From contig NZ_LN890655.1 of NCBI RefSeq assembly GCF_900066015.1, positions 744,001 to 808,000 on the forward strand: a stretch of 64,000 bases of DNA, read 5' to 3'. The notes below the pieces were generated by a model. The model was not told the DNA's origin. It ran no database searches and saw only the letters and a program-made list of their open reading frames with translations. Position 1 is the stretch's first letter. Each line of letters starts with the position of its first letter. Shown piece by piece: positions 33,951 to 61,458 of the stretch. Origin of the DNA: Candidatus Promineifilum breve. Lineage in GTDB: Bacteria > Chloroflexota > Anaerolineae > Promineifilales > Promineifilaceae. The translations under genes and the position numbers were made by a program.

Positions 33951-35099
33951 ATGATTGACTCCGAATTTGGCGAAGCCGAACACCCCATGAATTTTCTCCT
34001 TCATGAGGATCTGTATTTACCCAGTGCCGGCGAAATTCGCGCCGGCCGCATCGTTGATTTTCGCAATAATGAGATCTTGGTCGACATTGGCGCCAAGTCC
34101 GAAGGCGTAATTCCCAGCCAGGAAACGGTGAGTTACGATTCGGCGACGCGCGCTTTATTGCGCGAGGGCGAGGAGATACTCGTCTTCATCGATAACCCCG
34201 AAGACAACAACGGCAACATTATCCTGTCCTATCGCCGCGCGGCCGAGGAAGCGGATTGGCAACTGGCCGGCGACCTGCTCGAATCGCAGGAAGCGATTGA
34301 GACGGAGATCGTTGGATTCAATAAGGGTGGCGTGCTGGTCAGCGTCGGCCAATTGCGGGGCTTTGTGCCCAACTCGCAATTGCGGCGCGACCGGCTACCG
34401 GACGGCGACGGCGAGAACCGCCAGCGCTCCTACCAATCGCTGGTCGGGCAGCCGGTGCTGGCTAAGGTCATCGAAGTCGACCGGCCGCGCAATCGCCTCA
34501 TCCTCTCCGAGCAAGCCGCCTCGCGCGAGATTCGCCAGGCGCGCAAAGGCGAACTCTTCGCCAATTTGCAGGAAGGGGCCATCCTCGAAGGGCAGGTGGT
34601 GAACCTGGCCGAGTTCGGCATCTTCGTCGACATCGGCGGCATCGAGGGTCTGGTGCATCTGTCGGAGATGAGCTGGAAACGCATCCAGCGGCCCGGCGAC
34701 ATGGTTCAGAAGGGCGACCGGGTGAAGGTCCAGATTCTCAGCGTGGATCACGAGCGTCAGCGCGTGGCCCTGAGCATGAAGCGCCTGGAAGCCGACCCGT
34801 GGTCGCGCATTGACGAACTGTATCGCGTCGGTCAACTGGTGGAGGCGGAGATCACCCGCCTGACCAAGTTTGGGGCGTTTGCCCGCGTCTATGATGATTA
34901 TCAACTGGAGGGTTTGATCCATATCTCCGAACTGGCCGAGGATCGGGTCGAGCAAGTGCGCGACGTCGTGAAACCCAACGACAAAATTACCGTCCGCATT
35001 ATCCGCCTTGACGCCAAACAGCGGCAAGTCGGCTTGAGCCTGCGCCAGGTGGCGTCGGACAAGTATATTGAAGAAGATCTGGCGTTGATGAGCGGATAA
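33951..35099 (+). CDS. rpsA: S1 RNA-binding domain protein (ribosomal protein S1-like)
   Basis: A 382-residue protein with four S1 OB-fold domains: about residues 20-90 (GRIVDFRNNEILVDIGAKSE), 105-180 (VGFNKGGVLVSVGQLRGFVP), 200-270 (EGQVVNLAEFGIFVDIGGIE) and 285-360 (EITRLTKFGAFARVYDDYQL). Four-domain S1 proteins serve as ribosomal S1 in many non-proteobacteria, helping unstructured mRNA bind the ribosome. That matters here because several transcripts look short-leadered. The ATG at 33951, preceded by AGGAAC, is preferred to a TTG at 33903. A heptamer palindrome follows immediately after the stop. Confidence 0.88.
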   Translation: MIDSEFGEAEHPMNFLLHEDLYLPSAGEIRAGRIVDFRNNEILVDIGAKSEGVIPSQETVSYDSATRALLREGEEILVFIDNPEDNNGNIILSYRRAAEEADWQLAGDLLESQEAIETEIVGFNKGGVLVSVGQLRGFVPNSQLRRDRLPDGDGENRQRSYQSLVGQPVLAKVIEVDRPRNRLILSEQAASREIRQARKGELFANLQEGAILEGQVVNLAEFGIFVDIGGIEGLVHLSEMSWKRIQRPGDMVQKGDRVKVQILSVDHERQRVALSMKRLEADPWSRIDELYRVGQLVEAEITRLTKFGAFARVYDDYQLEGLIHISELAEDRVEQVRDVVKPNDKITVRIIRLDAKQRQVGLSLRQVASDKYIEEDLALMSG

Positions 35100-35100
35100 C

Positions 35101-35188
35101 AAATTACGAATTACGAATTAGGAATTACGAATGAAAGAGCGCTATCTTCATTCTTAATTCGTAATTCGTAATTCGTAATTCTTAATTC
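35101..35188. repeat. heptamer palindrome (AATTACG type)
   Basis: Left arm 35102-35138 holds five tandem AATTACG-like heptamers, and right arm 35147-35188 holds the inverted CGTAATT units. It begins one base after the S1-like stop codon and ends about 18 bases before the clpC start. Its AT-rich composition contrasts with the surroundings. Confidence 0.9.
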
Positions 35189-41573: not shown

Positions 41574-43091
41574 CATCTCTTCTTCCTCCGCCACCAACCT
41601 AGTCCCCGCCGCCCCCATCCCCAACATCATCCAAAAAATCGTCACCGCATGGTGGAAGTCCATATTGAACAAATAATGGTCGAACACCCCGGCCACCAGC
41701 GCGCCGACGAGGGCGGCGTGGAGGCCCAGCCATACCGCGTCGTGGCGCTGGTCGGCCCGCGCCGCGTGGCGGTGGACGAAAGCGTAGCCGAAGACCGCGC
41801 CGATGACGCCCAGGAAGGCCAGCAGCCCGAACAGCCCCATGCGCCCGGCGATGGTGAAGTAGACGCTGGCGACGGCCAGGTAGAGATCAACGTCGGGCGA
41901 ACCGGCAAAGCCGACGCCGAAGATGGGGTAGCGGCCGATGAGGATGAGCGCATCCTTGTACTCGCCGAAGCGCATCTGCGTCGCCAGGTCGGTGCCCTGG
42001 AAGCCCTCGGCGAAACGGGCGATGTAGTCCTGGGTGATGGGCAGCAAGAGCAGCAGCAGGCCGACAACGACCATATAGGGCAGCAGGCGACGGTAGCGGG
42101 CCACGGCGACGAAACCCAGCCCGGCGGCCAGCCCCAGCATCGCCCCGCGCGAGAAGGTCAGCACCAGGGCCACGAAGATCAGCCCGGTGATGCCCCAGAT
42201 GACCGGGCGGCGGAAGAGCGGCCGTTTGGTCACCATCTGCGGCCCGACCAGCGCGCCGATCATCAACAGCAGCCCGCCCAGCGAGTTGGGATCGACCGAC
42301 GTGCCGATGGCCCGCTCCGATAGCGCCGGGTTCTCCTCGATGTAACGGATGACCCAGCCGCCGGGATAACCGAGGCGGGTCAGGGCATTCAATATCGTGT
42401 TGGCCGTGTCGTCGGGCAGCAGCCACAGACCGATGGCCACGGCCGCCGCCGCCGCGCCCATGAGCAGCAGGAACTTGACCAGCCGCTCCAGATGCGACCA
42501 TTCGCGGCAGTAGTCGATGACGACGATGACGAAACCCAGGCTCAGCAGCAGTTCGGCGAACTTGCGCAGTAGCGTCGGCGTCAGCGGGCCGTTGGCCAGG
42601 CCGAAGATGAAGGCGAAGACGGCGACGATGATGAACAGGATCAGCGGCAGGGCCACCGGCGCGGTGATAAGCCGCCGCTGCCGGCCGGTGACGATGCCCA
42701 GTAGCCAGACGAAGATGACCCCGCCCAGGGCGAAATCGAGGAACGTCGGCGTCACGCCGATGTCCACCGGCAGCGTGGCAAAGGGCAGCAGAGCGACCAC
42801 GGCGATGACGGCGAAGAAGCCGAGTTCGATGTTGCGCAGGATGAGCAGCGCCGCCAGCCCGCCCAGCAGCACGCCCGCCCCGGCCACCGGCCCGCCGAAG
42901 GCCAGGACGATGCCGCCCAGGACGGCCGTGGCGCCGAGGAGGAGGCCGAGGGCGAGGGGGGAAGAAGAAGGCAGGGGAGCAGGGGAGAAAGGGAGCAGGG
43001 GGGAGGAAGAGCCGCCGAGACGGCGGCGATCCTCGGCGCTCCCCTGCTCCCCTGCCCCCCTGCTCCCCTGCTCCCCTGCGTTTGTCGTCAT
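41562..43091 (-). CDS. O-antigen ligase/polymerase family protein (Wzy/WaaL) with repeat-encoded N-terminus
   Basis: A 509-residue polytopic protein of the Wzy_C family, which ligates or polymerises lipid-linked glycans outside the membrane. The signature periplasmic loop and neighbouring helix are seen in RFGEYKDALILIGRYPIFGV and LTFSRGAMLGLAAGLGF. About twelve helices span residues 48-490. Residues 5-45 (AGEQGSRGAGEQGSAEDRRR, SSPLLPFSPAPLPSSS) are encoded entirely by an octamer palindrome. The start overlaps the upstream stop as ATGA, so ribosomes are delivered before the repeat. The stop codon is also in a repeat. Confidence 0.85.
   Translation of the reverse strand: MTTNAGEQGSRGAGEQGSAEDRRRLGGSSSPLLPFSPAPLPSSSPLALGLLLGATAVLGGIVLAFGGPVAGAGVLLGGLAALLILRNIELGFFAVIAVVALLPFATLPVDIGVTPTFLDFALGGVIFVWLLGIVTGRQRRLITAPVALPLILFIIVAVFAFIFGLANGPLTPTLLRKFAELLLSLGFVIVVIDYCREWSHLERLVKFLLLMGAAAAAVAIGLWLLPDDTANTILNALTRLGYPGGWVIRYIEENPALSERAIGTSVDPNSLGGLLLMIGALVGPQMVTKRPLFRRPVIWGITGLIFVALVLTFSRGAMLGLAAGLGFVAVARYRRLLPYMVVVGLLLLLLPITQDYIARFAEGFQGTDLATQMRFGEYKDALILIGRYPIFGVGFAGSPDVDLYLAVASVYFTIAGRMGLFGLLAFLGVIGAVFGYAFVHRHAARADQRHDAVWLGLHAALVGALVAGVFDHYLFNMDFHHAVTIFWMMLGMGAAGTRLVAEEEEMERG
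42971..43079. repeat. octamer palindromic element translated inside the O-antigen ligase gene
   Basis: Left arm 42971-43003 is tandem GCAGGGGA octamers with variants, loop 43004-43037 contains GCCGCCGAGACGGCGGCG, and right arm 43038-43079 is tandem TCCCCTGC octamers. It is wholly within the coding frame. The unit has no stop codon in any of six frames because its period (24 bases) covers every phase. Confidence 0.9.
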
Positions 43092-45544
43092 CGCGCGTCT
43101 ACCCTCACCTGGGTCAAGGTCAGGAAGTCGTCGGTCAGGCGGCCGTCGGGCGTGACTTGTTGCAGGCGGTCGAAGCCGCCCTCGGCCGTGCGCGTGTAGA
43201 GGCCGACGATGAGCGGGTAGACGTCGGGTGGCGTATCGCCATTGACAGTTAAAGTCAAACGCAACTCGGCCACTTCACCGACCGCCCAACTGCTCGTCGG
43301 TAAAGGCGGCGTCACGTCGGCCGCGGCGTAGCGGGTCGTGTCCGCGCCGACGATCTGGGCGAAGAAGGTGAAGTCGCCCGGCAGCGGTTCGGACGGCCGC
43401 CAGTAGGTCGTCACGTTCACCGTCTCGCCGGCGGTCACCCGCCGCGGTTCGACGGCAAAGCCGACCAACTCCAGCCCATGCTCAAAGAACAACGAGACGG
43501 GATTGGGGTATGGCCCCTCGGTCGCGGTCAGCGGAATCGTCGCCAACACCGCAGCATCGCCGCCGCCGGCCGTCAAGCGCTTGCCCGTGGCGAAGTCATA
43601 TAGTCCCACAGTCAGTTCCAGTTCGGCCGGGGCCATGGCTGTCGGCGGGATGGTCAGGACGTACTCGTCCACCAGGCGCTCGCCGGGTTGCAGCAGGCTT
43701 GTCGGCCGCAGGCCCGCGCCGGGGTACATATCCCGTTGGGCAATCGGCCGGCCCAGCACCGGATCGTTCAGATGCACGAAGACACTCCAGTCGCGTTCCA
43801 TCGCTTGCAACACTTCCCACTCCAGCCGGACGCGCACAGCGTCGCCCGGTCGTGGATCGTCGTATTCTACCTCATATCCGACCAGCCGCAGCGCTTCACC
43901 GAATTCGACGGCCGTCTGTTCGGCCAGCGGGCCGGTGTAGGTCGGGGGCAGGTAGGCGGGGCGAATCCATAGCCACGGCGCGGCGGCGGCGACGAGGAGC
44001 AGAAATACGGCCACACCCATGATGATCCAATCGCCCAGCCGCCGGGATGGCGGCGCTCCCCTGCTCCCCTGCGCCCCTGCCCCCCTGCGCCCAATCTCCC
44101 CCAACCCGACGGCCATGATGGTAGACAACGACGAAATGGCCGTGAACACCAATCGCCCCTGCGATGACCAGGTGGTGGTGGCCCATTGGATGAGGCCGTA
44201 GACGACGGCCGCGGCAAACAGCACGTTGACGATGAGGCCGAAGTGGCGCTCGACGGGACGCAGCAGGCAGGGGAACCAGCCTTCCCGACTCTCGCGCCAC
44301 GCCCGCGCTTCGGCCAATAGCAAGCGGAGCAGATGCAGGACGAAACCGACCACGCTCAAGAGCAATATGGCGTTGAGCACGGTGTAGACCCACATCCACA
44401 TGGGCACGTTGACGCCGCCGAACAGGCCCCAGAACGACATCATAAAACCGCGCCGCTCGCCCCACAGTTGGGCCAGCGATGCCGGGTGGCCGCGCTGCCC
44501 CAGGACGGCGATGAAGGCGCTCCAGCCCAGCCAGTCGCCGTAGAGGACGATGTTGCGGTAGTACCACCAGCCGGCGATGGCGAGGATGGGGAGGGCGAGG
44601 AGGGCGACCGCTGATAGGAGATCGCGGACGGCGGTCGCAGGGGAGGCGTGGGCCGGACGAGAGTCCGGGGGCAGGGGAGCAGGGGAGAAAGGGAGCAGGG
44701 GAGAAAGGGAGCGCTGACGTGACGGCAGCTCTTCCGCCCCCCTGCCCCCCTGCTCCCCTGCTCCCCTGCACCACCCTTGCCACGCCGCCACGACGGCCGT
44801 ACCCAGAGCCATCGGGATGAGGCCCAGCGTGCCTTCCTTGGTCAGGATTGCCAGGCCGATGATGACGCCGACTGTGAACCACTCCGTCCAGCGAACTGGC
44901 GTATACTTTTCGCGTCGTTTCGCGACGATGCGCATCATCAGCAGCAGGGCCAGCGACGTTAGCGGCACGGCTAGATTATCATTATTGACCGCGCCACTGA
45001 TGAACAGAAACATCGGCAGGAAGGCGTTGATGGCTGCCGCGCCGAGGGCCACTGCCGGGCGACCAGGCGCGGTCGCGGCGGCGATGCGATAGGTCAGATA
45101 GACCGTGGCCGCGCCCAAGAGCACCGAAACCAGCCGCACCACGCGCACGGCCAGCAGCGCCCCGGCCCAGGGATCGGCCGCCGGGTCATGGACGGCCAGA
45201 TTGTTGTTGCCGTCGGGCGTGATCAGGCCGTTGTCGACGTGGGGATTGAGCCAGCGGGCCTGGGCCATGTCGGACTGGTCGATCCAAAAGGTCAGCGCCG
45301 CGCCGAGGTAGTAGTAGAGCGGCGGCTGGCTGGCCTCCTGATTCCACGGCCCGGCCAGCGCCGGATCGAAGACCTGCACCGGCAAGGAGTTGCCCCCCGC
45401 CAGATGCTGTACCATGGGGTAGTGCCATAGCTCGTCCGACGCCTCGAACGGCGGCGTGACAAGGGCATAGGTAAAACCCAGGGCAACGTAAAGCAGGAGG
45501 ATGAGCGCCAGAAGGCGGCGTTCGGTGGCGGGATGGGCAAGCAT
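43088..45544 (-). CDS. GT-C-type membrane glycosyltransferase with two in-frame repeat insertions
   Basis: An 818-residue polytopic enzyme. The first loop has VTPPFEASDELWHYPMVQHL with acidic residues, and PWNQEASQPPLYYYLGAALT, as in GT39/DUF2142-like enzymes. Two octamer elements are translated inside it: GAGEQGGRGAEELPSRQRSL (about residue 260, with SPLLPFSPAPLP after it) and RGAGAQGSRGAPPSRRLGDW (about 485). Both fall in loops between predicted helices. The C-terminal third holds two copies of the beta-sandwich module shared with other GT-C proteins. It is coupled to the O-antigen ligase gene by ATGA. Confidence 0.8.
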   Translation of the reverse strand: MLAHPATERRLLALILLLYVALGFTYALVTPPFEASDELWHYPMVQHLAGGNSLPVQVFDPALAGPWNQEASQPPLYYYLGAALTFWIDQSDMAQARWLNPHVDNGLITPDGNNNLAVHDPAADPWAGALLAVRVVRLVSVLLGAATVYLTYRIAAATAPGRPAVALGAAAINAFLPMFLFISGAVNNDNLAVPLTSLALLLMMRIVAKRREKYTPVRWTEWFTVGVIIGLAILTKEGTLGLIPMALGTAVVAAWQGWCRGAGEQGGRGAEELPSRQRSLSPLLPFSPAPLPPDSRPAHASPATAVRDLLSAVALLALPILAIAGWWYYRNIVLYGDWLGWSAFIAVLGQRGHPASLAQLWGERRGFMMSFWGLFGGVNVPMWMWVYTVLNAILLLSVVGFVLHLLRLLLAEARAWRESREGWFPCLLRPVERHFGLIVNVLFAAAVVYGLIQWATTTWSSQGRLVFTAISSLSTIMAVGLGEIGRRGAGAQGSRGAPPSRRLGDWIIMGVAVFLLLVAAAAPWLWIRPAYLPPTYTGPLAEQTAVEFGEALRLVGYEVEYDDPRPGDAVRVRLEWEVLQAMERDWSVFVHLNDPVLGRPIAQRDMYPGAGLRPTSLLQPGERLVDEYVLTIPPTAMAPAELELTVGLYDFATGKRLTAGGGDAAVLATIPLTATEGPYPNPVSLFFEHGLELVGFAVEPRRVTAGETVNVTTYWRPSEPLPGDFTFFAQIVGADTTRYAAADVTPPLPTSSWAVGEVAELRLTLTVNGDTPPDVYPLIVGLYTRTAEGGFDRLQQVTPDGRLTDDFLTLTQVRVDAR
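44036..44094. repeat. half octamer element inside the GT-C gene
   Basis: This is a loop-like GCCGCCGGGATGGCGGCG followed by one arm of TCCCCTGC-type octamers (44053-44094). It is read in frame within the 43088-45544 gene and resembles the loop plus right arm of the element at 42971-43079. Confidence 0.8.
44667..44770. repeat. octamer palindromic element inside the GT-C gene
   Basis: Left arm 44667-44712, loop 44713-44735 (with CGGCAGCTCTTCC) and right arm 44736-44770 form the same kind of palindrome as at 42971-43079. It is in frame in a membrane-protein loop. Confidence 0.88.
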
Positions 45545-47732: not shown

Positions 47733-47798
47733 TAGTGGATAGTGGATAGTGGATAGTGGGTAGTGGTCAGTGGTCAGTGGTCAGTGGTCAGTGGTCAG
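47733..47798. repeat. 9.4-copy perfect-register heptamer array
   Basis: Nine tandem heptamers drift from TAGTGGA to TAGTGGG and CAGTGGT, filling the gap between the GT2 start and tatD. On the minus strand the units read TGACCAC and one provides the tatD stop codon. No inverted arm is present here. Confidence 0.92.
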
Positions 47799-49103: not shown

Positions 49104-49182
49104 GTTAGTGGGCAGTGGGCAGTGGACAGTGGGCAGTGGGCAGACTGATCACTGCCCACTGCCTACTATCCACTGATCACTA
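49104..49182. repeat. heptamer palindrome (GTGGGCA type)
   Basis: Left arm 49105-49143 is five tandem GTGGGCA-type heptamers and right arm 49146-49182 is the inverted set. It fills the gap between the phosphohexomutase stop and the thioesterase start, touching the stop codon. Confidence 0.9.
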
Positions 49183-50598: not shown

Positions 50599-50610
50599 GT
50601 AGTCTCCTTA

Positions 50611-50730
50611 AGGAAGAGAATCCACAGATTTCACAGATTCCACAGATTGAAGAGAGTGGTCAGTGGTCAGACCCGTTCGCGTTCCCCTCTTAAATCGGTG
50701 TAATCTGTGTAATCTGTGGATTCTCCCTTC
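50611..50730. repeat. nonamer palindrome with a nested heptamer repeat
   Basis: Left arm 50611-50650 and right arm 50694-50730 are inverted CACAGATT-type nonamers. The loop contains AGTGGTCAGTGGTCAG (50655-50670), a heptamer repeat of the family at 47733. One repeat family has thus landed inside another. Confidence 0.88.
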
Positions 50731-50738
50731 TTTCTCTT

Positions 50739-52684
<1,946 letters not shown>

Positions 52685-52685
52685 A

Positions 52686-52795
52686 ATGGTCAGTGGTTAG
52701 TGGGCAGGGGAGCAGGGGAGCGGGGGTGCAGGGGAGCGCCGCCGTCTCGGCAGCTCTTCTTCCCCCCTGCTCCCTATCTCCCCTGCTCCCCTGCA
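52686..52795. repeat. mixed heptamer and octamer element
   Basis: A short heptamer run (52686-52704) is fused to an octamer palindrome (arms 52704-52735 and 52761-52795) whose loop, GCCGCCGTCTCGGCAGCTC, is the reverse complement of the loop at 43004-43037 with small changes. It lies between the methyltransferase-like gene and a 97-residue gene. Confidence 0.88.
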
Positions 52796-52809: not shown

Positions 52810-53103
52810 TCACCCCTCATCCACCGGCGGCTCATAAGCCATCACCGGCCGATAGACGCAGCGGCAATGCAGCCCCTTGGCGCAATCAGGCAGCGGCAGG
52901 TGGGGCGCGTCGTCGGGGCTGTATTCGGCGCGGGGGTCGAGGGCGCGGCTGGCCGGGCAGCCGTCGCCGTCAACCTCGATGCGCACACCGCGAATCGAGC
53001 CTTTGGAGCGGATGCCCAGGCGGTAAGCGGCCAGCGTCTTTTCGGCGTAGTCGGGGGCTTTTTGGATGTCCTGGTGGAAGGATTTTAGCCAGTCGAAGGG
53101 CAT
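52810..53103 (-). CDS. small Cys-containing conserved protein (phage-head-like knuckle)
   Basis: A 97-residue protein: MPFDWLKSFHQDIQKAPDYA, then RGVRIEVDGDGCPASRALDP, and finally HLPLPDCAKGLHCRCVYRPV. The order of cysteines (C-P-x-S-R-A-L, C, CRC) resembles the metal-binding C-terminal region of Mu F-like phage head morphogenesis proteins, but the protein is much shorter and no phage genes are near. The ATG at 53103 with GGAG upstream is well supported. Function unknown; a metal-binding role is plausible. Confidence 0.6.
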   Translation of the reverse strand: MPFDWLKSFHQDIQKAPDYAEKTLAAYRLGIRSKGSIRGVRIEVDGDGCPASRALDPRAEYSPDDAPHLPLPDCAKGLHCRCVYRPVMAYEPPVDEG

Positions 53104-53317
53104 GGGGGTCTCCTTTGCCGGATTGTAGCGGTATCGGTACCTTATCGCCATTTGTGGGCTAACAATTGCCCTGGTACAGTTTTTAGGAGGATAGATCACT
53201 CTTGTATATCGTATCGGAAATACTGGTGCTATCGACGCTATCGTTGTTTCGCCTTTGGGGGTCACCTTAGGCCTCCCATCAGGTCAAGCCACTAGAAATA
53301 CCAATGGTCCAAGCATC

Positions 53318-55585: not shown

Positions 55586-56755
55586 TCATTTGTCGGCGTG
55601 GGCCGGTAAGGACTCTTTCTCCCCTGCTCCCCTGCCCCCCTGCTCCCCTGCGCCTCGAATGGCAATACTATCGGGAGAGATAACCTTCAACCCCACACGC
55701 GACAGCGTCGGCGGATCGATAAGCATATTGGTATAAGAAGCATTCGCCAGCGGGCAGTAGCACTCCTTGGCGGCGATGCTGCGGCGGACTTCCCTGATCT
55801 TGTCGCCGAACCAGATTTCCTTGAAATCGTAGTTATGGTCGCGCAGGTTGCCCAGGTTATCGGCGCGGACACAGCAGGGCCAGATCGTGCCGTCGGCGTA
55901 GATCTGGGCGCTGGCCCAGCCGGCGTAGCAGTCGATGACCTGATCCTGCTCCTCCAGAATGCGCTTGACCAGCTTGTAATACTCCACCCGGAAGGCCTCG
56001 GTGATGCGGGCCACGCCCCGGTAGCGCTTGCTCTCGACGTAGGCGATGAGCCGGTCGATGGCCGCGTTGTACTGCTCCGGGCTGGGGGTGATGGGCAGGC
56101 CCACGGTGTCCAGTTCGACGCGCGGCTCGGCGATCTCGGTGATGAACTGGTCCGCGCCGGATTGTTCGGCGTAGGCGATCAGTTCGTCCAGATGGCCGAC
56201 GCTGAACACGGAGACGACGGAATGGATGCCGATGTTGAGATTGGGCAGGCTATCGCGCAGGGCCAGCAGTTGCCGCAAGCGCTCCTCGAACTTGATGAAG
56301 TTACCCGGCACGCCGCGGATGAAGTCGTGCTTCTCGCCCACGCCGTCGAGCGACAGGTTGATGATCAGCTGGCTCTCCGGGCAGGAGCGGGCGATGCGCT
56401 CCACCTTGTCGGGGATGGTGCTGAGGATGCTGTTGGTAGGGATGTTGATGATGCCCGGCCGGCAATGTTCGTAGGCCAGTTGGGCCAGTTCGACGATGCC
56501 GCCGAACATGAACGGCTCGCCGCCGCTGATGGTGAACCAGTAGGGGGCGCGGCCGAGCGAGGCCAGCGCCTTGTCCCACTCGTCCAGCGTCATCTCGTTC
56601 TCGCGCTTCATCCAGATATTGCAGGTCAGGCAGCGCGAATTGCAGCGCGGCGAGGGGGATAGCGTGATGTTGAGGGGTAGCAATTTAGGCCAGCCGAAGC
56701 GGCGGTAGGCCTGAAAAAGGGGTACGCGGGCCAATACGCCCGCCATTGAATTCAC
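55586..56755 (-). CDS. radical SAM protein with C-terminal SPASM-like cysteines
   Basis: A 389-residue radical SAM enzyme. The 4Fe-4S/AdoMet motif is CNSRCLTCNIW (about residue 37-47), followed by ISGGEPFMFGG and IINLSLDGVGEKHDFIRG. The C-terminal part has clustered cysteines (DCYAGWASAQIYADGTIWPC, KECYCPLANASY) typical of a SPASM auxiliary cluster domain, so it may modify a peptide or sugar. The last 20 residues (RGAGEQGGRGAGEKESLPAH) are encoded by an octamer arm. The GTG at 56755 (GTGA overlap with the upstream GT2, GGAG 11 bases before) is used; an ATG at 56746 is possible. Confidence 0.83.
   Translation of the reverse strand: MNSMAGVLARVPLFQAYRRFGWPKLLPLNITLSPSPRCNSRCLTCNIWMKRENEMTLDEWDKALASLGRAPYWFTISGGEPFMFGGIVELAQLAYEHCRPGIINIPTNSILSTIPDKVERIARSCPESQLIINLSLDGVGEKHDFIRGVPGNFIKFEERLRQLLALRDSLPNLNIGIHSVVSVFSVGHLDELIAYAEQSGADQFITEIAEPRVELDTVGLPITPSPEQYNAAIDRLIAYVESKRYRGVARITEAFRVEYYKLVKRILEEQDQVIDCYAGWASAQIYADGTIWPCCVRADNLGNLRDHNYDFKEIWFGDKIREVRRSIAAKECYCPLANASYTNMLIDPPTLSRVGLKVISPDSIAIRGAGEQGGRGAGEKESLPAHADK
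55615..55652. repeat. single octamer arm (TCCCCTGC type)
   Basis: Four to five tandem TCCCCTGC octamers with one CCCC variant lie in the 3' end of the radical SAM gene and are translated as its tail. No second arm or loop is present. Confidence 0.85.
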
Positions 56756-59629: not shown

Positions 59630-60636
59630 CAGACGTAATGCTCCAGGTGGTCGCGGAAGTAGTCCATCGTCCGTGTCAGGCCGTCGCGCAGGCCAACCAA
59701 CGGCCGCCAGCCCAGTTTGCTGCGAATCTTGCGGTAGTCGCCGTAGAAATCGCCAATGTCGATGCGCTTGCGGTCGGCGGGGAACGGGGTCAGGGCGAAT
59801 GAGCCGCCGCCGTTGACCTCGATCATCAGCCGGGCCAGATTGATGAGGTTGATCGGTTCGTCGCCGCCCAGGTTGTAGATCTGGCCGTCGGCCACGTCGT
59901 GGGCGGCGACCATCAGCAGGGCCTCCACCACGTCGTCGATGTAGTTGAAATCGCGCACCTGCAAGCCGTCGCCGAAGATTTGCAGTTCGCGCCCCTCCAG
60001 CAATTGGCGGAACCACCAGCCGATGAACGTCTGCCGGGCGTCGCGGATGCGCATCCGCGGGCCGTAGGTATTCGTCAGGCGCAGCGACACCGTCCGCAGG
60101 CCATAGACGTCGTGGTAGACCATGTGGTACCACTCGCCGGCCAGTTTGTTGATGCCGTTGACGTCGGCCGGTTGCAGCGGGTGGCGCTCATCGACCGGCA
60201 GGTATTCGGGGCGGCCGTAGATCTGCCGCGTGCTGGCAAAGACGACCTTGGTGGCCGGGTTGCCATGGCGGCACGCTTCCAGCAGGGAGAGCTGGCTGCG
60301 GGCGTTGATCTCCAGGTCGGTGTAGGGATCGATCATGCTGTCGGTGTGGCTGACCTGCCCGGCCAGATTGAAGATGATGTCCTGCCCCTGCACCAGATAG
60401 CGCAGGCCGTGCTCGTCGCGAATGTCGGCGATGTTGATCCGCACCTGATCTTCCAGCCCGGTCACGTTGAAGACGTTGCCGCCGTATTCGGGGATGAGCG
60501 AATCGACGATGAGCACCTCGGCCCCCAGCCCCAAGAGGCGATGGGCGATGTTGGAGCCGATGAAGCCCAGTCCACCGGTGATGAGGACGCGTTTGCCGTT
60601 GAAGAAGGTGAGGTGATCGGTGGGGACGGTGGGCAT
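59629..60636 (-). CDS. NAD-dependent sugar epimerase/dehydratase family with atypical active site
   Basis: An extended SDR of 335 residues. The N-terminal motif is VLITGGLGFIGSNIAHRLLG, followed by IIFNLAGQVSHTDSMIDPYT, VFASTRQIYG and ADVNGINKLAGEWYHMVYHD. The usual catalytic Tyr of Tyr-x-x-x-Lys is Asn here (NGINK), while the Lys is kept. GDGLQVRDFNYIDDVVEALL and YNLGGDEPINLINLARLM are typical of NDP-sugar epimerases. It probably modifies a sugar nucleotide, but a member without the catalytic Tyr may work differently. Coupled to the SDR gene downstream. Confidence 0.85.
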   Translation of the reverse strand: MPTVPTDHLTFFNGKRVLITGGLGFIGSNIAHRLLGLGAEVLIVDSLIPEYGGNVFNVTGLEDQVRINIADIRDEHGLRYLVQGQDIIFNLAGQVSHTDSMIDPYTDLEINARSQLSLLEACRHGNPATKVVFASTRQIYGRPEYLPVDERHPLQPADVNGINKLAGEWYHMVYHDVYGLRTVSLRLTNTYGPRMRIRDARQTFIGWWFRQLLEGRELQIFGDGLQVRDFNYIDDVVEALLMVAAHDVADGQIYNLGGDEPINLINLARLMIEVNGGGSFALTPFPADRKRIDIGDFYGDYRKIRSKLGWRPLVGLRDGLTRTMDYFRDHLEHYV

Positions 60637-60638
60637 GG

Positions 60639-60689
60639 GATAGTGGGTAATGGTTAGTGGGTAGTGGGTAGTGGGCAGTTGTCAGTGGA
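60639..60689. repeat. heptamer array (TAGTGGG type)
   Basis: Seven or so degenerate TAGTGGG/CAGTGGA heptamers lie between the epimerase start and the GT2 gene. The GT2 stop codon (ending at 60682) is within the array. Confidence 0.85.
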
Positions 60690-61458
60690 TGGCGCTTGAC
60701 GGCGATTCGTCATTCGTCGTTCGTCGTTCGTCATTCATCACTTGCCCTTCGCGCCGCCAAACCAGTTGCATCCACAACTTGGTCAGGTCGCGGGCCACCT
60801 GGGCCAGGCGGTGGAAGCGGAAGAATTGGGATTTGCCGTAGGCGCGGTGGAAGTGATGCACCGGCGTCTCGGTCAGGCGGAAGCCGGCGTCCTGCACCTT
60901 TTTCATCAGTTCGACGCAGATGACGCCGCTGTTGCTGGTGAGTTGCACCTGCTCGAAGACCTCGCGGCGCATCAGGCGGAAGTCGCAATCCACGTCCTTT
61001 AGCTTCAGGCTGAAGGCCAACTTGATGATGTATTGGTAGATGCGGCCGATGACGATGCGGTGCAGCGGATCCTGGCGCTCGATCTTCCAGCCGTTGATGA
61101 AATCGATGTCATCGGTGATCAGCGCGGCCAGATTCTTGAGTTCGCGCGGATCATACTGGGCGTCGCCGTCGGTGTAGAATATCCACTCCTTGGCCGCGCC
61201 ATAAAAGCCGCTGCGCAGCGCGCCGCCGTAGCCGCGGTTCTGCGGATGGTGGATGATGCGCACTTCGTCGGGGTAGACGCGGGCCAGCTCATCGAGCACG
61301 GCCGCGGTGTGATCGGCGCTGCCGTCGTTGACGACGAGCACTTCGTAGTCGTCGGTCAACTCGCGCAGAGTCAGCAGGACGGTGATGACCATGCTGCTGA
61401 TGGTGCCGGCGTCGTTATAGGCCGGGAAGAAGGCGGAAATGCTGGGCTTGTCGGTCAT
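60682..61458 (-). CDS. family 2 glycosyltransferase (DPM1-like) with repeat-encoded tail
   Basis: A 258-residue GT2 of the polyprenyl-phosphate mannosyl/glucosyltransferase type: ISAFFPAYNDAGTISSMVIT, VLVVNDGSADHTAAVLDELA, PQNRGYGGALRSGFYGAAKE, IFYTDGDAQYDPREL and DVDCDFRLMRREVFEQVQLT. The N-terminal motifs make it a good candidate to load a sugar on the lipid carrier for the GT-C enzymes. The last 20 or so residues (VMNDERRTTNDESPSSAIH) and the stop come from two heptamer repeats, not from the fold. Confidence 0.87.
   Translation of the reverse strand: MTDKPSISAFFPAYNDAGTISSMVITVLLTLRELTDDYEVLVVNDGSADHTAAVLDELARVYPDEVRIIHHPQNRGYGGALRSGFYGAAKEWIFYTDGDAQYDPRELKNLAALITDDIDFINGWKIERQDPLHRIVIGRIYQYIIKLAFSLKLKDVDCDFRLMRREVFEQVQLTSNSGVICVELMKKVQDAGFRLTETPVHHFHRAYGKSQFFRFHRLAQVARDLTKLWMQLVWRREGQVMNDERRTTNDESPSSAIH
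60706..60741. repeat. heptamer array (TTCGTCA/TTCGTCG type)
   Basis: Five tandem heptamers in the 3' end of the GT2 gene, translated as part of its C-terminal tail. No inverted arm. Confidence 0.85.

Follow-up and report, generated by a model that had tools for sequence, protein, structure and literature searches.

Arrays of tandem heptamers or octamers are known in several bacteria and are mostly regarded as simple repeats. STRR and LTRR are the tandem heptamer repeats of Nostoc, which are filamentous bacteria, while the SDR elements, reportedly treated by Elhai et al. in 2008, are said to be very small structured cyanobacterial repeats that show compensatory changes and are often embedded in tandem heptamers. 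Of the known systems, the closest to the elements described here is found in Xanthomonas, whose GGGAATC repeats comprise four units and are convergently inverted (PMC4692102). In the portion of that report drawn on here, these heptamers are described as dispersed, G-rich, variable (GGGANTN) and mostly composed of four units, with 70 inverted pairs in convergent orientation in one species and 75 in another, and with 7-11% of the repeats being intragenic; the same portion reports few inverted pairs for the GGGGATT repeats of Nostoc (PMC4692102). REP and RPE palindromes are likewise described, in the part of their account used here, as short and dispersed, some of them lying within genes (PMC3733652). 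A literature search for octamer palindromes in Chloroflexota found no account of them, which is not proof that none exists.

The window analysed here is a 64,000-nt stretch (C1:744001-808000) of a 5.03-Mb genome that is assembled in three contigs and is 99.96% complete. The octamer elements that it carries are probably copies of a hairpin repeat that is dispersed and non-autonomous.

Octamer palindromes of the window

The octamer content of the window consists of three full palindromes and two half elements. E1 (42971-43079) is made up of 4 G-rich octamers, a 37-nt loop containing the hairpin GAGCCGCCGAGACGGCGGCGATCC and 5 C-rich octamers, and its nested hairpin repeat (the conserved loop) is found at 43009-43032 on the plus strand. 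E4 (52704-52794), which is intergenic between ORF 51860-52684 (-) and ORF 52810-53265 (-), has 4 G-rich octamers, a 27-nt loop and 4 C-rich octamers; its nested hairpin repeat (52738-52756) is on the minus strand, the orientation of the loop being opposite to that of E1. The third palindrome, E3 (44671-44769), contains 5 G-rich octamers, a 27-nt loop with a decayed hairpin and 4 C-rich octamers. It lies in frame in ORF 43088-45544 (-), within a variable loop, and adds approximately 20 residues to this 818-aa protein. Also in frame within this ORF is a half element (44038-44088) from which the G-rich arm is missing: the loop hairpin GCCGCCGGGATGGCGGC at 44038-44054 is accompanied by a C-rich arm of exactly four octamers at 44057-44088. 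The other half element (55620-55651), absent from the first-pass annotation, is a C-rich arm of exactly four octamers, with the half turn CTCTTTC immediately before it. Strong hairpins are predicted for the three palindromes (z -7.3, -6.7 and -6.9), and no Rfam family matched the window at the gathering score.

The first-pass annotation had described the loop at 52686-52795 as nearly the reverse complement of that at 42971-43079. This was borne out, as the reverse complement of the 52.7-kb loop GAGCTGCCGAGACGGCGGC has 1 mismatch in 19 positions to the 43.0-kb loop GAGCCGCCGAGACGGCGGC, with the borders of the former element now refined to 52704-52794. The element originally placed at 44667-44770 was said to share this loop and does so in a decayed version, carrying CGGCAGCTCTTCC within a 27-nt loop equal in length to those of other copies (refined borders 44671-44769), and the proposed half element at 44036-44094 is found at 44038-44088 with its loop hairpin and one four-octamer C-rich arm. 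The broader proposal, that these are copies of one dispersed unit (arm, loop, inverted arm) occurring in both orientations, is supported as well, and the inverted arms were confirmed.

Octamer arms and the nested loop hairpin

Based on 426 octamers, the unit is GCRGGGGN. Its G run is altered almost solely to A, position 3 changes from A to G in 67 cases and position 8 varies from A to G (86), T (58) or C (13). As the two positions that vary are those at which the unit has A, diversity-generating mutagenesis of adenines was considered; it was dropped because it is the complementary T that varies in the C-rich arm. A 20-mer octamer pattern has 692 exact matches across the 5.03-Mb genome (control, 0), and a 16-mer pattern allowing at most one mismatch has 643 (reversed control, 0).

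Palindromes with at least two octamers per arm were collected from an 864-kb sample composed of the window and 40 stretches of 20 kb spread across the genome. Four octamers were found in 9/11 left arms and 8/11 right arms, none being shorter, and in all 11 palindromes the G-rich arm precedes the C-rich arm (the reverse order: 0). In a larger, hit-selected set of 28 palindromes, four octamers are present in 24/28 left arms and 18/28 right arms. Single arms are common, with 34 of 90 unique arms lacking a partner within 150 nt, and some of these are long (up to 11 octamers). The turns between arms are mostly of the form GA..TC and approximately 7-13 nt in length, the remainder being 27-nt loops or larger inserts of other repeats. 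The motif GAAGAG/CTCTTC/AAGAGC/GCTCTT is present in 9/25 octamer turns compared with 0.49 expected, a signal that mostly reflects the loop family itself because seven of the nine motif-bearing turns hold the nested loop. Arms are 0.854 similar within one element and 0.870 between different elements, a small difference in a set chosen in part by perfect octamer matches. Perfect-copy hairpin formation was rejected, as neither arm of an element is a copy of the other.

It is possible in principle for such structures to arise by local slipped-strand expansion, with template-switch palindromes recurring independently and no dispersal. The tandem arrays themselves, the variation of octamers within an arm at two positions, the long single arms and the lack of mutual copying between the arms of an element are all compatible with this explanation. 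However, one octamer, four units per arm, a fixed arm order and a GA..TC turn are found both at loci unrelated to one another and in a second phylum, array periods in the genome are mostly 7-9 nt and 14, and the 27-nt loop is conserved in both orientations. We consider this explanation unlikely; the fixed octamer number, fixed arm order, conserved covarying loop and presence or absence in congeners argue against plain slippage, as the first-pass annotation had supposed.

The loop was followed through the genome using a pattern that matched 26 places with at most one mismatch (9 exact, 17 with one mismatch), compared with 6 matches for the reversed control. Six of these places (L113, L114, L116, L119, L121 and L128) were judged to be chance and were left out of alignment A1. 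Of the remaining 20, nine adjoin octamer arms (two of them, L107 and L117, in one half element) and 11 stand alone, with GGCGATCC on the 3' side of the stand-alone copies. The loop similarity seen in the first-pass annotation persists across these 20 genomic copies: the seven-pair stem is paired in 139/140 cells, a proportion that is biased upwards because the search pattern fixed part of the stem, while slid controls are 12-78% paired. Fourteen cells are changed on both sides compared with 3.5 in shuffles, two covarying positions having been left free in the search pattern. Many octamer palindromes have a short turn in place of this loop. The loop had initially been read as a part of the element; because it also stands alone, it is not simply an element part. 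It is a second, REP-like hairpin family, GCCNNCGRGACGNNGGCGATCC, nested in the octamer family in both orientations. Other repeat families were observed at the apex of two further octamer palindromes, L012 (C1:1478397) and L019 (C1:1906622), where the units are ACGCAAAG and CCCTCTCCCACC..GGGAGGGGTTAGGGG; this gives the impression that other repeats insert preferentially at the apex.

Sites, distribution and mode of spread

Comparison with congeners indicates that element sites differ between related genomes. E1 is absent from the corresponding place in five congeners, which have 29-93 nt of other sequence instead, that of G401 being partly octamer-like. E3 is absent from four of the five congeners compared. 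In G144 the E3 place is occupied by a 4+4 octamer element whose octamers differ and whose turn is short, which is compatible with a hotspot used more than once as well as with an old insertion followed by divergence. In the gene for MiaB (L008), an octamer element stands in place of a variable linker; among the congener loci used for comparison (L131 and L133-L135, with L132 left out), the element is missing from L133-L135 and, in L131, the C-rich stretch is reduced. The MiaB and NuoL copies sit between homologous blocks, as determined by phmmer against PDB chains. Native sequence is partly replaced at element sites, so that the insertions are not clean and a single-event insertion is indistinguishable from insertion followed by erosion. 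The first-pass annotation had suggested a search for target-site duplications, and this was negative: direct repeats in the flanks of 28 elements equal the permuted control, and target duplications, a feature of MITEs, were therefore rejected.

Copy number is equally variable. The exact 20-mer has 13 matches in G400, 11 in G144, 111 in G403, 58 in G405 and 0 in G401, G402 and G404, the last of which is 98% complete. Within the phylum (400 genomes), the 16-mer pattern is abundant only in the genome studied here (643), with tens of matches in a few others. The palindrome pattern was found in 30 stretches of GTDB contigs, mostly from Chloroflexota (Promineifilum and other MAGs); outside this phylum there were one Nostoc, one Okeania and one Cloacimonadota MAG, and three were likely chance. 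We analysed 29 of the 30 (L093 was left out) and dropped L077, L094 and L095 as short GC hairpins judged to be chance. Of the 26 kept elements, which include the possibly chance L089, 15 have precisely the 4+4 plan, and four octamers are present in 20/26 left arms and 20/26 right arms. Similar sequence occurs in four Nostoc plasmid records, in every case under an annotated CDS and in at least two with a 4+4 plan by eye. These palindromes (L170-L173) lie within TraI-like, polyketide synthase, ATP-binding and hypothetical CDS, and three of the plasmids were typed as conjugative. The octamer pattern had no match in phages and was absent from viral contigs, and viral carriage was rejected on these grounds.

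With respect to structure, a full copy consists of two inverted arms of usually four tandem GCRGGGGN octamers, G-rich first, around a short GA..TC turn, with the second hairpin repeat occupying the apex of some copies as the conserved loop. Such a repeat may have spread when a strand able to form a hairpin was inserted at a break or fork and some native sequence was lost, and insertion could have been carried out by host enzymes or by an enzyme acting in trans. The persistence of copies within genes may be due to the absence of stop codons from all six frames of the octamer and to the landing of these copies in variable loops or linkers. Several observations count against this dispersed-hairpin reading. 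No spreading enzyme was linked to the octamer family in searches for Y1 and RVT_1, single arms are many (34/90), the insertions are unclean and G144 has an element at the E3 place. Additionally, arms that are slightly less alike within than between elements are not predicted by the simple copying of one master hairpin.

One candidate for such an enzyme is the REP-associated tyrosine transposase, which would mobilise the octamers as REP/REPIN-type repeats. Three Y1 transposase genes are present in the genome (L071-L073), one of which (L073, C1:556427-556681) is RAYT-like; Y1 genes are also present in six of seven congeners, and G404 has neither Y1 genes nor octamer matches. In G400, two loci (L165 and L168) have a four-octamer arm approximately 1 kb from a Y1 gene. 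However, the hairpins on either side of L073, GTAGGTGGAACTTCCAGTTCCACC, carry GTAG tags and form a family distinct from the octamers, and the 3.3-kb loci L071-L073 contain no octamer arm of at least three units (there is one 2-unit match in L071). The tags are missing from octamer borders, with GTAG found once within 8 nt outside the foot of 28 palindromes and CGTC in 0/28, and G401 and G402 have Y1 genes with 0 octamer matches, both genomes being incomplete. Of the REP/RPE-like character suggested by the first-pass annotation, the RPE-like part is supported in one respect, as there are in-frame copies within genes; the REP part and its TnpA_REP association are not supported. RAYT mobilisation was rejected as the best reading because of the lack of tags and the different hairpins at the RAYT-like gene, and we consider it highly improbable. 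The GTAG hairpins GTAGGTGGAACTTCCAGTTCCACC recur in the genome sample, as do further GTAG hairpin families such as GTAGGGCGGGTTGGCAACCCGCC.

Spread via an RNA intermediate and reverse transcription would suit small, structured, nested copies without target duplications, and Elhai et al. are said to have suggested reverse-transcription spread for very small cyanobacterial repeats in 2008. However, RVT_1 (PF00078) had no match in this 99.96% complete genome in a search that was positive in 3/14 control genomes and that could miss a very divergent reverse transcriptase. Retro-copying by a genome-encoded reverse transcriptase was rejected for this reason, and an RNA route is in our view very improbable.

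The elements might instead be kept mainly as functional G-quadruplex or hairpin regulators, such as terminators or mRNA stabilisers. The four GGGG tracts of an arm are what one intramolecular quadruplex requires, the predicted hairpins are strong and G4 folding of heptamer relatives is treated in the accessible part of the Xanthomonas report (PMC4692102). However, 14/45 sampled elements are in an in-frame open context, or 11/45 without three that are merely 16 nt in length (four 16-nt arrays were treated as chance, three of these having been scored in frame). Furthermore, AT-rich AATTACG heptamers have the same plan without G tracts and the sites are not conserved in congeners, so that we give little credence to regulation as the main reason for maintenance.

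Related arrays and comparison with known systems

The dispersed octamer hairpins are not the only repeats of this form. In the window, palindromes with the same plan are built from AATTACG units (35096-35188) and AGTGGGC units (49106-49182); the turn of the former, GAAAGAGCGCTATCTTC, resembles the octamer turn GAAAGAAGCGCTCTTC in L065, and at the place of the latter G403 has 10 nt of other sequence. More heptamer arrays are located at 47733-47798, 52056-52136 and 60629-60751 (AGTGGTC, GACGACC and ATTCGTC units), with congeners having other sequence at the place of the 47.7-kb array. Another dispersed repeat, part of which has 9-nt periodicity, is found at 50610-50735; it aligns with several further genomic places, and in congeners its position is taken up by other sequence. 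In-frame heptamer repeats (NDELRMTNEE..SSFVIRHSSF) occur in the MoeA-like ORF of L023 and the permease-like ORF of L065 (14170-17067), the latter ORF additionally holding three octamer elements.

Tandem arrays in the 864-kb sample have periods of 7 (n=80), 8 (n=36), 9 (n=11) and 14 (n=15), while all remaining periods from 4 to 14 account for 15 arrays and a Markov control gave 1 in all. Inverted neighbour pairs among 142 arrays of unit 7, 8 or 9 number 24 (18 heptamer, 4 octamer and 2 nonamer), the array finder missing most octamer pairs detected by the two-octamer palindrome rule, and the purine-rich arm comes first in 24/24. Median array lengths are 38, 37 and 27 nt for units of 7, 8 and 9, and at least six unit families are present in the genome. 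The octamer family is one member of a wider set of palindromes with 7-, 8- and 9-nt units, a common polarity and partly common turn motifs. More tentatively, these may all belong to one unrecognised class of length-regulated hairpin repeats, in which arms of approximately 27-38 nt are built from 7-, 8- or 9-nt units, the purine-rich arm is always first, turn motifs are partly shared and a nested apex hairpin is accepted, and which would extend over Chloroflexota, Cyanobacteria and (from the literature) Xanthomonas. If this were true, arms of near-constant length built from interchangeable units would imply shared machinery capable of measuring the arm and copying short units.

Set beside arrays regarded as simple repeats, those described here are distinguished by their fixed palindromic plan, by the second repeat nested in them and by their strong expansion (692 matches versus 0 in a 98% complete congener), and they also supply housekeeping proteins with additional in-frame peptides. 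As congeners range from 0 to hundreds of matches, the spread of such repeats is directly testable by strain comparison. The embedding of the loop hairpin in octamers resembles what is described for the SDR elements. The short tandem units are shared with STRR/LTRR and GGGGATT of Nostoc, and the octamer palindrome itself is present in Nostoc plasmids. Unlike the GGGGATT repeats, for which the source drawn on reports few inverted pairs (PMC4692102), the octamer family has inverted arms. As in RPE, octamer copies are found in frame in protein-coding genes (MiaB-like, NuoL-like and the 818-aa ORF of the window), but tandem-octamer arms, the absence of GTAG or CGTC tags and the absence of RAYT association set the family apart from REP and RPE as described in the part of that account used here (PMC3733652). 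The Xanthomonas repeats differ in unit (7 nt, GGGANTN, as opposed to the octamer GCRGGGGN), in phylum and in genic location, with roughly one sampled element in four lying in frame within ORFs here compared with 7-11% intragenic; the nested loop hairpin and shared turn found here are not noted for them in the portion of the report drawn on (PMC4692102). In both systems, however, approximately four tandem units make up an arm and the arms form convergent inverted pairs (PMC4692102).
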